Shown here piece by piece: positions 4,713 through 10,553 of a DNA stretch of 13,496 nucleotides. The notes below the pieces were generated by a model. That model had not been told where the DNA came from and did no database searches. It saw nothing but the letters and a program-made list of their open reading frames with translations. Location of the stretch: assembly GCA_013696945.1 (NCBI GenBank), contig JACCXQ010000208.1, positions 1 through 13,496 on the forward strand. The letters are read 5' to 3'. Both the position numbers and the translations under genes were made by a program. The stretch's first letter is position 1; the number at the start of each line of letters is the position of its first letter. This DNA comes from Chloroflexota bacterium (GTDB lineage: Bacteria; Chloroflexota; Limnocylindria; Limnocylindrales; CSP1-4).

Positions 4713-5309
4713 TCACGAGGGCGCTCGACCTGTCTGCGGATCCAGCGACTGGAGCAGCCCGGTGTAGCAGGTGAGCACGAGCGACCCCCCGACCAGCTCC
4801 GCCTCGGCGATGACATCCGGATGCGCGACGCGCCAGAGGACACCACCGTCCTGGCCGAGCGCGGCCGTCTCGAGCTCGCTCTGGGCGATGACGTGGTGCA
4901 GGCGGGACGAGGCGATGATCGAGATGAGCGGCGTTCGCGTGGCATGCGTCCAGCGCAGCTCACCGGTGCGACCGACGAACGCATACGCGCAGAACCCGTA
5001 CTTCACGACGAGCAGCCCGGTCGTGTCCCAGAGGATGCCCTGCGGTTCGTCGAAGATCGTCGACGCCAACCTGGCCGTCCATGCGCCCAGCGGGCCCTCG
5101 ATCCTCAGCTCTGCGCGGCAGAGCCGGTCCGGGTCGTCGGAGACGAGCGGGCCGTGGTCGGCGAACGTTCCTCCGACCTCGCTCGTCGCCGAGATGGCAG
5201 CCGCCTGCTGGCTGCCTACCCAGCGGTAGCGCGCAGCGAGTCCGCCGGGGTACTGGACGGAGGAGCGATGCGGCTCGGTCGACGGGCTCCCCGCTGCCGA
5301 CGGGGTCAC
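4713..5309 (-). CDS. PQQ/beta-propeller-repeat-like protein, unknown function
   Basis: 198 aa from GTG 5309, whose GTGA overlaps the TGA of the upstream YbaK-like gene, a classic coupled start. The open frame reaches back to 5894, but that portion is antisense-like Arg/Pro-rich sequence overlapping the YbaK gene, so I reject it. The protein is beta-rich and carries short PQQ-type motifs: FVGRTGELRW, LGQDGGVLWRV and, near the C-terminus, SLDPQTGRAP. Two or three blades are far fewer than a full seven- or eight-blade propeller. There is no signal peptide, so a cytosolic location is likely. It may be a minimal WD/PQQ-like domain protein. No catalytic residues can be named. Confidence 0.62.
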   Translation of the reverse strand: MTPSAAGSPSTEPHRSSVQYPGGLAARYRWVGSQQAAAISATSEVGGTFADHGPLVSDDPDRLCRAELRIEGPLGAWTARLASTIFDEPQGILWDTTGLLVVKYGFCAYAFVGRTGELRWTHATRTPLISIIASSRLHHVIAQSELETAALGQDGGVLWRVAHPDVIAEAELVGGSLVLTCYTGLLQSLDPQTGRAPS

Positions 5310-5878
5310 GCCTCGGACGGGGCGCCGGTGCGGAAAGCGGTGGCTCCGGTCGCTGGGCCCGTCGCGTCGGTCGACTGCTGCGGCTCCTCCGCGATCGGCG
5401 CTACGGTCGCGTTCGACAGGATGCGCAGGGTCGCGGGCGGCACCTCGAATACCGCGTTCGGTGTCCCCGCAGCGGCCCAGACCGTCGTGAAGCGGCCCAG
5501 GTCCGGGTCCATAACGACGCGGGTCGGACGGAGGTGGCCGATGGGCGGGATCCCGCCGATCACGAAGCCGGTCAGGTCGTGTGCCTCCTGTGCCGTCGCG
5601 CGCCGGAGGCCGGGCAGGCCGGCGACCGCGGCAAGCCGGCTGACCTCCACACGGTTCGCGCCGCTCACCAGGCATATCACGGGTTCTGGGCCGTCGTCGG
5701 TGAGGCCCACGAAGACGAGGCTCTTCACGATCTGGCCGAGCTCCGCGCCGACCGCCCGCGCGGCATCTTCCGCCGTGTGCGTCGAGTCGTCCTCGAAGGT
5801 CAGGATCTCGAGCGACACGGCTTTGCGCGCGGCGGCGTCGAGGACGCGCTGATGCGCGGGATGCACGACGCTGGGCAC
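5306..5878 (-). CDS. ybaK: YbaK/EbsC-family aminoacyl-tRNA deacylase
   Basis: 190 aa from GTG 5878. Members of this family hydrolyse mischarged aminoacyl-tRNAs (Cys-tRNA-Pro, Ala-tRNA-Pro and similar) in trans in the cytosol. Family landmarks are in order: THTAEDAARAVGAELGQIVKSLVF near residues 33-56 with the conserved Lys, GANRVEVSRLAA near 73-84, the glycine loop VIGGIPPIGH near 106-115, and VWAAAGTPNAVFEVPPATL near 133-151. The core ends near 160; the last 30 residues are Thr/Ala/Pro-rich and probably disordered. Substrate specificity (YbaK, ProX or YeaK-like) cannot be told from sequence alone. It heads the minus-strand series, overlaps the next gene by 4 nt, and is divergent from the thiamine operon, with the start only 54 nt from the riboswitch. 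Confidence 0.9.
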   Translation of the reverse strand: MPSVVHPAHQRVLDAAARKAVSLEILTFEDDSTHTAEDAARAVGAELGQIVKSLVFVGLTDDGPEPVICLVSGANRVEVSRLAAVAGLPGLRRATAQEAHDLTGFVIGGIPPIGHLRPTRVVMDPDLGRFTTVWAAAGTPNAVFEVPPATLRILSNATVAPIAEEPQQSTDATGPATGATAFRTGAPSEA

Positions 5879-5891
5879 CGCGGGAGTCTAG

Positions 5892-5908
5892 CACCCGCCT
5901 CCCGGGTG
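5892..5908. repeat. Short inverted repeat in the divergent promoter region
   Basis: CACCCG (5892-5897) and CGGGTG (5903-5908) form a perfect 6-bp inverted repeat with a 5-nt spacer. It lies between the divergent YbaK start and the thiamine riboswitch, immediately before the candidate -10 box. The position suits an operator or simply a GC-rich hairpin; no known regulator motif is recognised. Confidence 0.25.
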
Positions 5909-6059: not shown

Positions 6060-6083
6060 ATGTTCGGATCGGAAGACACGTGA
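6060..6083 (+). CDS. Possible 7-codon leader ORF coupled to the thiN-thiB frame
   Basis: ATG 6060 follows GGAGG by 7 nt, the best ribosome-binding site in the leader, but the frame encodes only MFGSEDT before TGA at 6081-6083. That stop overlaps the GTG (6080) of the long thiN-thiB frame as GTGA. A ribosome recruited at the riboswitch-controlled site would therefore finish at the exact start of the kinase and could re-initiate there. Alternatively GGAAG at 6071-6075 serves GTG 6080 directly and the mini-ORF is fortuitous. It is too short for coding statistics. Confidence 0.4.
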   Translation: MFGSEDT

Positions 6084-7834
6084 GGGCCGTCATCGTGGCG
6101 GCCGGCGAGGTAGATAACGCTGCGCTTCGCGCGGCCGTGGATGGCGACCCTACCGCGCGCCCTATCGTCATCTGCGCGGACGGCGGCGCCCTGGAGGCCG
6201 AGTCTGCGGGCGTGACGCCGGACCTGGTGCTGGGCGATGGCGACTCGCTCAGCGAAGCCGACGTCGCGCGCCTGCGGGCGGCCGGGGTCACGGTCACTCT
6301 CGTTTCGCCCGAGAAGGACGAGAGCGATATGGAGCTCTGCGTCCGCGGGGCCGTGGAACGCGGCGCGGACCCGATCCGGATCTTCGGGGCGCTCGGCGGG
6401 CTGCGGCCGGACCACACGCTCGCGAACCTCGCGCTGCTGGCGCTGCCGCAGCTACGCGGCGTGGACGTGACGCTCGAGCACGCGGGTGGATCGATCCGGC
6501 TGGTGGATGCGGGCCGCTCGCCGGCCACGGCGGCGTTCGACGGGGCGCCGGGCGACCTGTTGTCGCTCCAGCCACTCGGCGAGGGAGCGGAGGGCATCAC
6601 GACCCAGGGGCTGCGCTACCCGTTGGACGACGAGCCGCTGGCCTACGGGCCGTCACGCGGCCTCTCGAACGAGTTCGTCGAGCCCCGCGCGTCGCTCGAC
6701 GTGGGGCGGGGGCGGTTGCTGGTCACCCACACGCGGCTTGCGGCCCTGGGGGCCGTGCTGGCGTTGCTCGCGCTTGTCGCCTGCGGACCGGGGGCCAGCG
6801 TACCGCCGAGCCCGACCACGCTGCCGAGCGCCGTCACGTCCCCCTCGAACCCGCCCGACCCGACCGAGCTCGTGCTCATGACCCACGACTCGTTCGCGCT
6901 GTCCGATGCCTCGATCGCCGCATTCGAGAGTGATCAGGGGGTCACGCTGCGCATCCTGCGGTCGGGCGACGCGGGCTCGATGGTCAACCAGGCCATCCTC
7001 TCGCGCGAGCACCCGCTCGGCGACGTCCTCTACGGCGTCGACACCACGTTCCTCTCGCGCGCGCTCGACGCGGAGCTGTTCACGCCGTACGCAGCGACCG
7101 CGCTCGATCAGATCACCGTGCCGGTCGATCCCCGTCGCCGGGTCACGCCGGTCGACTACGGCGACGTCTGCCTGAACCTGGACCCGGAGGCCTTCCGGGA
7201 CGGGTCCCCGCGGGCGCCCGATTCGCTCGACGACCTGACCGACCCGGCGTACCGCGGCATGCTCGTGGTGGAGAACCCGGCTACGTCGTCGCCGGGCCTC
7301 TCGTTCCTGCTCGCCACGGTCCAGCGCTTCGGCGACGAGGGCGCTACGACCTGGCGCGACTACTGGGCCGCGCTGCGCGACAACGATGTGCTTGTGACCG
7401 ATGGCTGGGAGGATGCCTATTACGGCCGCTTCTCGGGTGGCTCGGGCGAGGGCGATCGACCGATCGTCGTCTCGTACGCCAGCAGCCCGGCGGCCGAGGT
7501 CGCTTTCGCGCCGGATCCCAAGCCGGAGAAGGCGCCCACCACCGTCGTCGAGGACGGCTGTTTCCGCCAGGTCGAGTACGCCGGCATCCTCGCCGGCACG
7601 GAGGTTCCCGGAATCGCCGGCGCGTTCATCGACCACCTGCTCTCGCTGCCGGTCCAGTCCGAAGAGGTACCGCTCCAGATGTTCGTCTACCCCGTTCGCG
7701 GCGACGCGACCCTGCCCGACGTGATCTCCCGATTCGGGCCGCCTGCTGCGGCTCCGATCGAGCTGCCGTACCAGGTCATCGGCGCGGATCGCGAGCGCTG
7801 GATCAGCGAGTGGACGGAGATCGTCCTGCAGTGA
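6080..7834 (+). CDS. thiN-thiB: Fused thiamine pyrophosphokinase (ThiN) - thiamine-binding lipoprotein (ThiB/TbpA)
   Basis: 584 aa in one uninterrupted frame from GTG 6080. Residues 1-213 are a ThiN-type TPK (thiamine + ATP to TPP): ADGG 33-36, GDGDS 52-56 (usually GDFDS), EKDESD 78-83, GGLRPDHTLAN 106-116 and GLSNEF 194-199. The kinase domain ends where stand-alone TPKs normally stop (GRLLVTHT). The frame continues directly into a signal-like helix at 219-234 with lipobox LVAC (Cys235), a Pro/Ser/Thr linker (to about 262), and a complete thiamine-binding protein: HDSF 269-272, VDYG 358-361, NPATSSPGLSFLL 399-411, DGWEDAYYG 441-449, SYASSPAAEV 465-474, MFVYPV 534-539 and ISEW 575-578. As one chain it would be N-in/C-out, with the kinase in the cytoplasm and the binder outside. 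GTG 6701 (Val208) or TTG 6716 could start a separate ThiB internally, but no good Shine-Dalgarno precedes them. The stop overlaps thiP (GTGA). A TPP riboswitch precedes it. Confidence 0.93.
   Translation: MRAVIVAAGEVDNAALRAAVDGDPTARPIVICADGGALEAESAGVTPDLVLGDGDSLSEADVARLRAAGVTVTLVSPEKDESDMELCVRGAVERGADPIRIFGALGGLRPDHTLANLALLALPQLRGVDVTLEHAGGSIRLVDAGRSPATAAFDGAPGDLLSLQPLGEGAEGITTQGLRYPLDDEPLAYGPSRGLSNEFVEPRASLDVGRGRLLVTHTRLAALGAVLALLALVACGPGASVPPSPTTLPSAVTSPSNPPDPTELVLMTHDSFALSDASIAAFESDQGVTLRILRSGDAGSMVNQAILSREHPLGDVLYGVDTTFLSRALDAELFTPYAATALDQITVPVDPRRRVTPVDYGDVCLNLDPEAFRDGSPRAPDSLDDLTDPAYRGMLVVENPATSSPGLSFLLATVQRFGDEGATTWRDYWAALRDNDVLVTDGWEDAYYGRFSGGSGEGDRPIVVSYASSPAAEVAFAPDPKPEKAPTTVVEDGCFRQVEYAGILAGTEVPGIAGAFIDHLLSLPVQSEEVPLQMFVYPVRGDATLPDVISRFGPPAAAPIELPYQVIGADRERWISEWTEIVLQ
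6701..6784 (+). other. Internal signal anchor/lipobox at the ThiN-ThiB junction
   Basis: Codons 208-235 read like a self-sufficient lipoprotein signal peptide. A basic n-region (VGRGRLLVTHTR) leads into a hydrophobic core rich in Ala, Leu and Val, then LVAC followed by Gly-Pro-Gly. If translated from GTG 6701 the lipid-modified Cys would be residue 28, a normal spacing. Within the fusion the same segment would act as a transmembrane anchor between the kinase and the binding domain. No purine-rich ribosome-binding site is seen before 6701; a G-rich tract precedes TTG 6716 but lacks a recognisable AGGAGG core. Confidence 0.7.
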
Positions 7835-9498
7835 GGGGTCGGACGGCACTGCTGCTCGGGGCATTGCCGCTCGCGTTCCTGGCGGTCTTCTTCGTCTACC
7901 CGGTCGCCTCCATCGTTGGGATGGGCCTCGATGGGCGGGACGGCGGCGGCGGCCTCGGCGGAGTCCTCCAGACGTGGCTCGCGCCGCGCACCCTCGATGT
8001 CCTCTGGTTCACGCTCTGGCAGGCGGCCCTCTCGACGGTCCTGACGGTCCTCGCGGCGCTCCCGGTGGCCTTCGTCTTCGCTCGTTTCGAGTTCCGTGGC
8101 AAGCGGCTCCTGCGCGCGCTGGCGACCGTAGCGTTCGTCCTCCCGACCGTCGTCGTCGCGTCCGCGTTCGTCGCGCTGCTCGGGCCGCGGAGCCCGCTGA
8201 ACGATGTCATCGAGGCGGTGCTCGGGGCAGGGCAGCGACCGATCGCCCTCGACGGCTCGATCTGGGCGATCCTGCTGGCGCACGTCTTCTTCGACTTCGC
8301 CATCGTCCTGCGGCTCGTCGGAGGGGTCTGGGCACAGCTCGACCCGCGAGCCGAGGAGGCCGCGCGCGTTCTTGGCGCGAGTGGCTGGGCGGTCTTTCGC
8401 GAGGTCACGCTCCCGCTCCTCAGGCCGGCCATCGCCTCCGCGGCGGCGATCGTCTTCCTGTTCACGTTCACTTCGTTCGGCGTGATCCTGCTGCTCGGGA
8501 GCGCCGGGACGGTGACCCTGGAGGTGGAGATCTACCGCGCCACGGCACAGCTGTTGGACCTCCCGCTGGCGTCCTCGCTCGCGCTGCTCCAGATGTCGGC
8601 CGTGATCCTGTTGCTGCTCGTCTCGGCGCGCGTCGGTGAGCGGCTGGCCGTGGCGCAGCGGTTGCGTCCCGCGGAGGACTCCGCCCGGCGACCACGCGAC
8701 CGTCGAGAGCGTGTGACCGTCGCTGCGACAACCGGCGCGATGCTCCTCCTCCTAGGGGGCCCCCTGGCGATCCTCGTCGAGCGGTCGTTCGCGACCAGTG
8801 CCGGGTACGGGCTCGATGCCTACCGTGCCCTCGGTCAGACGGGCGCGCGGAGCGGCCTCTTCGTCCCGCCCATCGAGGCCATCGGGAACTCGCTGGCGTT
8901 CGCCGTCGCGACGATGCTCCTCGCCACGATCCTGGGGCTGCTCGCGGCGGCGGCCGTTGCGTATCGCCGGGGCAGCGTGTCCGGCGGCCTGGACGCGCTG
9001 CTGATGCTGCCGCTGGGCACGTCGGCGGTCACGCTCGGCTTCGGGTTCATCGTCGCGCTCGACGAGCCGCCGCTCGACCTGCGGACCTCGCCCCTGCTCA
9101 TCCCGCTCGCGCACACGCTGGTGGCCATCCCGTTCGTGGTCCGCGCCACCGTGCCGCTCATCCGCTCGATCGAGCCGCGACTGCGTGAGGCTGCGGCGGT
9201 CCTTGGAGCGCCGCCGCGTCGGGTCTGGCGCGAGGTCGACGCACCGGTCATCGCGCGCGCCGCCGCCATCGGGGCCGGGTTCGCGTTCGCCGTTTCGCTC
9301 GGCGAGTTCGGTGCGACGCTCTTCATCGCTCGCCCGGACGTCCCGACCGTGCCCGTGGCGATCTTCCGGTTGCTCGGACTGCCCGGTGCGCTCACGTTCG
9401 GTCAGGCGATGGCGATGAGCACGATCCTGATGATCCTGACCGCGGCGGCGGTGCTGGTCGTGGAGCGCTGGCGCTCCGGACAGCCGCAGGTCTTCTGA
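7831..9498 (+). CDS. thiP: Thiamine ABC transporter permease ThiP
   Basis: 555 aa from GTG 7831, whose GTGA overlaps the thiN-thiB stop; an in-frame GTG at 7810 is the alternative. About twelve transmembrane helices can be counted, six in each half, so both permease domains lie on one chain as in E. coli ThiP. Each half has the cytoplasmic EAA loop that docks the ATPase: EEAARVLGA near residues 175-183 continuing to a TLPLLRPA end, and EAAAVLGA near 453-460 continuing to DAPVIARA. A charged Arg-rich linker (about 278-296) joins the halves. The family is shared with Fe3+ (FbpB) and putrescine-type importers; thiamine specificity is assigned from the TPP riboswitch, the TPK and the TbpA-like binder in the same operon. 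It ends with TGATG, overlapping thiQ by 1 nt. Confidence 0.93.
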   Translation: MRGRTALLLGALPLAFLAVFFVYPVASIVGMGLDGRDGGGGLGGVLQTWLAPRTLDVLWFTLWQAALSTVLTVLAALPVAFVFARFEFRGKRLLRALATVAFVLPTVVVASAFVALLGPRSPLNDVIEAVLGAGQRPIALDGSIWAILLAHVFFDFAIVLRLVGGVWAQLDPRAEEAARVLGASGWAVFREVTLPLLRPAIASAAAIVFLFTFTSFGVILLLGSAGTVTLEVEIYRATAQLLDLPLASSLALLQMSAVILLLLVSARVGERLAVAQRLRPAEDSARRPRDRRERVTVAATTGAMLLLLGGPLAILVERSFATSAGYGLDAYRALGQTGARSGLFVPPIEAIGNSLAFAVATMLLATILGLLAAAAVAYRRGSVSGGLDALLMLPLGTSAVTLGFGFIVALDEPPLDLRTSPLLIPLAHTLVAIPFVVRATVPLIRSIEPRLREAAAVLGAPPRRVWREVDAPVIARAAAIGAGFAFAVSLGEFGATLFIARPDVPTVPVAIFRLLGLPGALTFGQAMAMSTILMILTAAAVLVVERWRSGQPQVF

Positions 9499-10553
9499 TG
9501 CTCACGCTCGGCGGGGTCAGCGCCGCGTACGGCGACAGGCGTGTGCTCGAGGACATCGACCTGAGCATCCCCGACGGAGCACTCGTCAGCATCCTCGGGC
9601 CGAGCGGGTCGGGGAAGACCACGCTGCTTCGGCTGATAGCCGGGCTCGAACGCCCTACCGCCGGTCGCATCTCGTGGGACGGCGCGGATCTCGCGCGTGT
9701 CGCCGTGCATGAGCGTGGCTTCGGGCTGATGTTCCAGGATCTCGGGCTGTTCCCGCACCGCGATGTTGCCGGCAACGTGTCATTCGGGCTCCGGATGCGC
9801 GGTGACGACGAGCCGTCCATCCGGCGCCGGGTCGCGGAGGTCCTGGAGCTCGTCGGGCTCCCCGGCAGCGAAGGGCGACAGGTGGCGCGGCTGTCAGGCG
9901 GGGAGCAGCAGCGCGTCGCACTTGCCCGCGCCATCGCACCCCGGCCGCGGCTCCTCATGCTGGACGAGCCGCTCGGGTCGCTGGACCGCGAGCTCCGGGA
10001 GCGGTTGCCGCTGGAGCTTCGCACGATCTTCCAACAGATCGGTGCGACGGTCCTCTACGTCACTCACGACCAGGAAGAGGCGCTCGGCATCGCCGATCGA
10101 ACGGTGATCCTGAGGGAGGGTCGGATCGAAGCCGACGGGCCGCCCGAGTCGCTCTGGCAGCGGCCGCCGTCGGCGTTCGTCGCCCGATTCCTGGGGTTCC
10201 GCAACGTTGCGCCTGCCGTGATGGTGGCAGGTGGCCGCGCGACCACGCCGTGGGGGCAGGTCGTTGTCGCCCCCGATGTCCCCGATGGGATCCACTCGAT
10301 CTTCCTCCGACCGGACGCGTTCACGCCACAGACCGACGGGCCGATCCGCGGCACGGTCACGGGGCGGCTCTTCCGTGGCGACCATGTCCGGTTGCGGCTC
10401 GCCATCCCCGACGCTCCTCCGCTCGAGATCGAGGCGCGATGGACCCCCCTGCCGGCCGTGGGTGACGAGCTTGCGCTCGCCGTGGACCCGGGCGGCGTCG
10501 TTGTCCTTCCCCGCGGGGCCGACGAGGCCACGGCTGGTACATTCCCGGCATGA
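9498..10553 (+). CDS. thiQ: Thiamine ABC transporter ATP-binding protein ThiQ
   Basis: 351 aa from ATG 9498, overlapping the thiP stop by 1 nt (TGATG). All ABC ATPase motifs are intact: Walker A GPSGSGKTT 34-42, Q-loop Gln80 in MFQDLGLFPH, signature LSGGEQQR 132-139, Walker B LLMLDEP 152-158, D-loop SLD and switch His190 in VTHD. After about residue 235 there is a C-terminal extension of roughly 115 residues with TOBE-like beta segments (VAPAVMVAGG, IFLRPDAF, GTVTGRLFRGDHVRLRL). E. coli ThiQ is only about 230 aa; the longer form resembles FbpC/PotA-type ATPases, whose TOBE domains can be regulatory. The protein powers ThiP. Its end overlaps the peroxiredoxin start as ATGA. Confidence 0.93.
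   Translation: MLTLGGVSAAYGDRRVLEDIDLSIPDGALVSILGPSGSGKTTLLRLIAGLERPTAGRISWDGADLARVAVHERGFGLMFQDLGLFPHRDVAGNVSFGLRMRGDDEPSIRRRVAEVLELVGLPGSEGRQVARLSGGEQQRVALARAIAPRPRLLMLDEPLGSLDRELRERLPLELRTIFQQIGATVLYVTHDQEEALGIADRTVILREGRIEADGPPESLWQRPPSAFVARFLGFRNVAPAVMVAGGRATTPWGQVVVAPDVPDGIHSIFLRPDAFTPQTDGPIRGTVTGRLFRGDHVRLRLAIPDAPPLEIEARWTPLPAVGDELALAVDPGGVVVLPRGADEATAGTFPA

Follow-up and report, generated by a model that had tools for sequence, protein, structure and literature searches.

A probable in-frame fusion of thiamine diphosphokinase with a ThiB-like thiamine-binding protein in a riboswitch-preceded importer operon

Organisation of the locus

All coordinates refer to the window, the whole stretch of DNA analysed (13,496 nt), in which the fusion occupies positions 6080–7834 of the forward strand. 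The fusion is preceded by a TPP riboswitch aptamer (RF00059; 5928–6035, +) scoring 68.9 bits against a gathering threshold of 54.3 (E 3.9e-12). TPP riboswitches also precede the thiamine diphosphokinase (TPK) gene in 10 of the 12 related loci that were searched, the exceptions being L087 and L006, the contig of which begins inside TPK. Reading the sequence directly, a mini-ORF of seven codons (6060–6083, +) lies behind a GGAGG and its stop codon overlaps the TPK start (GTGA). The GGAGG is held within a GACCTCC...GGAGGTC hairpin located 3' of the riboswitch. The same layout occurs in G002 (L061) and, started by GTG, in G003 (L003), each with seven codons of differing residues; the corresponding ATG of L005, L007 and L008 is instead in frame with TPK. 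The mini-ORF may be a leader linking riboswitch control with translation of TPK.

The fusion is followed, as had been claimed in the preliminary description, by genes for the remaining importer components: a ThiP-like permease with two BPD domains (7831–9498, +; PF00528 in two stretches), the start of which overlaps the ThiB stop (GTGA), and a ThiQ-like ATPase with a TOBE_2 domain (9498–10553, +; PF00005 and PF08402). Overlaps of 1–4 bases join ThiB to ThiP, ThiP to ThiQ and ThiQ to the next gene. Scores against the equivalog models were below cut-off for both ThiP (TIGR01253, 118 against 395.1) and ThiQ (NF008039, 144.5 against 298), so that their assignment to thiamine rests on the binder, the riboswitch and TPK.

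ThiC was found in none of five genomes of the genus, one of which is at least 90% complete, and in 13 of 14 control genomes. These bacteria therefore probably live by thiamine salvage. A single TPK match was present in the assembly. Import by TbpA/ThiPQ followed by the action of TPK is the salvage route proposed for Anaerolineae and Caldilineae (PMC6306507).

Reading frame and domain content

Positions 6080–7834 form one open frame of 584 codons, in agreement with the preliminary description, which had also proposed that a complete TPK is joined to a complete TbpA-like binder. The family profiles bear this out. TIGR01378 (thiamine diphosphokinase) matched residues 27–215 with 147.8 bits against a cut-off of 76.4, covering profile positions 21–205 of 206, and TIGR01254 (thiamine ABC binder subfamily) matched residues 262–578 with 223.7 bits against 93.4. 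PF04263 and PF04265 in the TPK part, together with PF13343, were likewise above cut-off in Pfam searches. The TPK part comprises residues 1–219 (6080–6736, +) and its profile match ends at residue 215, placing the junction at the natural end of TPK, as had been suggested. A signal or anchor stretch with a lipobox cysteine (L220–C235; 6737–6784, +) leads into the ThiB-like part, residues 236–584 and the stop (6785–7834, +). The solved chains nearest in sequence were 3lm8, a TPK, for the first part and the thiamine-binding protein 2qry (E 8e-30) for the second.

The fusion carries GDxDS, K-D-x-S/T-D and SN, which we take to be the conserved motifs of TPK. In an alignment that included 37 of 44 TPK references and five of the six joined database proteins described below (P0025 was left out), G52, D53, D55, S56, K79, D83 and N197 were each kept in 42–43 of the 43 TPK-bearing rows. 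The first half is thus a complete predicted TPK. Its GTG start at 6080 agrees with the N-terminus of the G002 TPK (VRAVIV). The database gene call for this protein (P0002, 501 aa) begins at codon 84, cutting the TPK catalytic domain in half. The second half scored 86.3 against the ThiB equivalog TIGR01276, for which the cut-off is 317.15, and is therefore described as ThiB-like and outside that equivalog. GC3 lay between 0.87 and 0.97 in 30-codon windows over codons 141–290, and between 0.77 and 1.0 along the whole frame; because it continues across the junction with no dip, no change of frame is visible there.

Signal stretch and predicted topology

Residues L220–A234 form a hydrophobic stretch of 15 residues with a mean Kyte-Doolittle value of 2.77, preceded by R219 and followed by C235 in the lipobox LVAC-G, as had been noted for Cys235. 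The stretch resembles the signal peptides of ThiB proteins such as P0003 (MTRLA...LVACGG) and has the hydrophobicity and terminal cysteine of a lipoprotein signal; it departs from one in position, with 219 residues ahead of it instead of standing at the N-terminus.

Positively charged residues favour the cytosolic side of a membrane-crossing segment (the positive-inside rule). Three arginines (R210, R212 and R219) stand ahead of the stretch, in the TPK part, and no charged residue occurs for more than 20 residues after C235, which makes it likely that TPK is inside and ThiB outside, the orientation put forward in the preliminary description. Searches of the assembly showed that LspA and Lgt are both encoded. 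With these enzymes and an intact lipobox, a cut by LspA before C235 is plausible, and cleavage appears at least as likely as retention of the stretch as an uncleaved anchor. A literature search yielded nothing on LspA acting on a signal behind a cytosolic domain, here of 219 residues. Two separate Lgt matches (C162 and C191 of G000) were obtained in this one 65% complete genome.

TPK and ThiB are separate genes in related genomes

In all seven relatives of the same class found with a close ThiB (G002, G003, G004, G012, G021, G028 and G040), TPK is a gene of its own directly upstream of ThiB, read in a different frame. Two genes with an intervening stop in close relatives had been named beforehand as grounds for rejecting the fusion, and the seven pairs do show that arrangement; they mark the join as a species-level event, yet are no proof of an artefact.

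The same picture emerged from two wider tallies, both of which counted only pairs on one strand and separated by no more than 900 bases. A first tally of 140 loci gave 47 distinct adjacent TPK/ThiB pairs (52 before removal of duplicates), of which the window alone was joined. An extended tally of 205 loci gave 94 distinct pairs (111 before removal of duplicates): 49 in different frames, 43 in the same frame with a stop, and two joined, namely the window and locus L159. Because long open frames were one criterion in choosing the loci added for this tally, and because some genomes belong to both genome sets, the counts should not be read as rates. Since a TPK stop separates 92 of the 94 pairs, all seven class pairs included, the fusion is not ancestral, and its interpretation as an ancestral or clade trait was ruled out. 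Of the 92 unjoined pairs, 25 allow ThiB to start at a four-base overlap with the TPK stop; TPK and ThiB are thus normally two genes, and often coupled ones.

Searches for unbroken full-length matches found only the window's own among the matches listed, both in 400 genomes of the phylum (at least 166 with a match) and in 396 genomes of the class of G420 (at least 254 with a match). The join in G556, the genome of L159, was missed in this way, and this test is consequently too blunt.

Other joined frames

The preliminary description knew of no example of this exact fusion. A literature search likewise found no paper describing a TPK-ThiB fusion; joined frames as such do occur elsewhere, in six database proteins and in L159. 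Three protein searches, which listed 238 proteins, revealed at least six joined proteins besides the window's own. Both domains are whole in P0027, P0048 and P0156, while P0143 and P0009 as called lack the first 42–47 positions of the TPK profile. The TPK profile match ends at position 191 of 206 in P0009 and at 157 in P0025; the TPK tail of P0025, and perhaps that of P0009, looks like a frame disruption. P0027 and P0048 share 79% identity from end to end, on which basis the joined frame appears to have persisted for some time in their lineage. From the end of the TPK profile to the ThiB methionine, 17–46 residues intervene in P0027, P0048, P0156 and P0143. The linkers of P0027 and P0048 resemble repeats (QEARGKRQDARGKKQEA in P0027) and give the impression of an intergenic repeat translated in frame. 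When only the TPK part served as query, the window's own protein was the sole match listed although other joined proteins exist; this protein search is uninformative on rarity.

Positions 823–2562 of L159 contain the one other join seen in DNA, with both parts whole by alignment; its genome, G556, is 88% complete and 8% contaminated. The ThiB ATG is kept there behind AGGAGG (-10.2 kcal/mol), so that free ThiB could still be made. All six joined database proteins likewise have a methionine at the usual ThiB start position, as judged by eye from protein sequence. The window lacks the usual start, which makes its join tighter than any other in the set.

Origin of the junction and alternative explanations

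The closest ThiB among the matches listed, P0003 (69% identical), begins MTRLA...LVACGG, where the window reads LLVTHTRLA...LVACG. The TPKs of the genus (G002, G003 and G004) reach HTR, LTR or HTQ and then continue into a variable tail of 5–16 residues. A deletion between two places encoding Thr-Arg would have removed the TPK tail and stop together with the ThiB start and left the sequence observed. Direct repeats of at least 10 bases were absent from 6600–6860. A 17-base inverted repeat (6636–6652 and 6784–6800, 82% complementary, 131 bases between the arms) flanks the junction and may be due to chance.

The source assembly is a metagenome-assembled genome (MAG) that is 65% complete in 342 contigs, and the fusion was seen in this single genome. 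Ten of 11 window ORFs tested have matches in a 9.8 kb locus of G002, the nearest genome, where their order is conserved to either side of the junction; the eleventh would fall past the end of that locus. In trees, both halves fall within a clade of the same genus with branch lengths of 0.43 (against 0.25–0.57) for TPK, for which 45 of 47 sequences were used, two short ones being left out, and 0.31 (against 0.12–0.42) for ThiB. A chimeric contig at the junction was rejected as unlikely on these two grounds. A simple one-base sequencing slip was also rejected, as it would not give the usual two-gene layout.

A genuine and recent fusion is the most likely origin of the frame. A larger error, in which the organism has two genes and a few bases were lost at the junction during sequencing or assembly, would fit with the incompleteness of a lone MAG, with the stop carried by the class relatives at this point and with the disrupted appearance of P0025, and perhaps P0009, among the joined frames. 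Such an error is nevertheless unlikely: of the two alternative frames, one has its first stop some 50 codons past the end of TPK and the other has none in the stretch examined, the GC3 profile is unbroken, the region lacks a direct repeat of the above length that could mislead an assembler, and the in-frame loss of several bases would be an unusual error. A fused DNA might also yield two proteins, were ThiB mostly initiated inside TPK and the fusion protein a minor product. Two in-frame substitutes would leave a usable signal, GTG 6701 and a possible TTG start at 6716–6718 (+). The latter stands behind a Shine-Dalgarno-like run of G residues with an energy of -8.6 kcal/mol, in the 5% tail of the local background and stronger than the TPK, ThiP and ThiQ starts of the operon itself (-3.3 to -6.6), and its product would have a normal-looking lipoprotein signal. 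Together with the ThiB start retained in L159, this energy comparison raised the weight given to internal initiation and lowered that of a single precursor; the methionines of the six database proteins point the same way. Initiation chiefly from within TPK is nonetheless quite improbable, since the G-run lies only about 3 nt from the TTG, nearer than usual, and codes for conserved TPK residues, GTG 6701 has no Shine-Dalgarno match (+1.2), and every TPK chain, still devoid of a stop, would read on into ThiB. The join might lastly be a neutral or decaying accident that confers no function and is being lost, as its occurrence in one genome, the sporadic appearance of other joins and the variability of the TPK tail in relatives, by which little would be lost, could indicate. 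This is very improbable given that both parts are intact with ordinary branch lengths, and that the only TPK found belongs to a lineage in which ThiC was not detected.

Proposed mechanism and relation to known systems

A genuine TPK-ThiB fusion in this species, made as one precursor of 584 residues, is considered modestly probable. TPK would have become fused in frame to ThiB through a small deletion within an operon whose genes are translationally coupled, and the fusion would be expressed under the TPP riboswitch and translated as a single chain. The former ThiB signal, now internal, would thread this chain through the membrane so that TPK stays in the cytosol and ThiB emerges outside beside ThiP. 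Lgt and LspA would then probably modify and cut it at C235, so that a lipoprotein ThiB and a TPK still carrying a hydrophobic tail arise in a constant 1:1 ratio. Synthesis as one precursor that is then cut is proposed tentatively, as possible rather than probable, and a precursor left uncut is rather unlikely. Were the cut slow or absent, a tethered importer-kinase would result; that such an uncut fusion works as a membrane-spanning capture-and-kinase unit, in which ThiB feeds ThiP and the tethered TPK makes TPP at the pore, is distinctly unlikely. In that unit uptake and phosphorylation would be coupled by a covalent link, and the looser joins found elsewhere would represent repeated steps towards it.

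The fusion shares a complete domain with conserved motifs with thiamine diphosphokinases (TIGR01378; solved relatives 3lm8, 3k94 and 1ig3), but has no TPK stop, its C-terminal strand passing into the membrane-crossing stretch. As in ThiB/TbpA (TIGR01254; 2qry), a complete binder with a lipobox is encoded beside ThiP- and ThiQ-like genes; unlike them, it lacks the usual start codon and has a 219-residue enzyme ahead of its signal. Split operons elsewhere in the genus and class, such as those of G002 and G003, have the same genes in the same order, with TPK, ThiB and ThiP behind a riboswitch, and differ in keeping TPK and ThiB separate. The two are also separate in the Anaerolineae and Caldilineae route (PMC6306507). 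The other one-frame joins (P0027, P0048, P0156, P0143, P0009, P0025 and L159) differ from the window in keeping Met at the ThiB start, which in L159 stands behind AGGAGG. They differ further in the 17–46-residue linkers of P0027, P0048, P0156 and P0143 and in the apparently disrupted TPK tail of P0009 and P0025. In the thiamine uptake operons pnuT-tnr3 of Bacteroides a riboswitch-linked uptake gene lies beside a gene for a thiamine-phosphorylating enzyme (PMC5613172), but these are separate proteins and the transporter is of another type.

The fusion is probably a real, unusual domain architecture assembled from known parts, present as far as seen in one assembled genome. If real, it offers a natural test of whether a soluble vitamin kinase can be linked through the membrane to its importer, and of the processing by Lgt and LspA of a lipoprotein signal behind a folded cytosolic enzyme. 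It would also illustrate the conversion of two genes, frequently coupled through a four-base overlap, into a single gene with a fixed 1:1 output.

Upstream of the riboswitch, on the reverse strand, the window contains two overlapping frames (4713–5894 and 5306–5878): one encodes a YbaK-like tRNA-editing protein, and the other, a longer ORF, gave no Pfam match. Both gave tblastn matches in G002 and G003, and the longer ORF may in part be a shadow of the YbaK-like frame.
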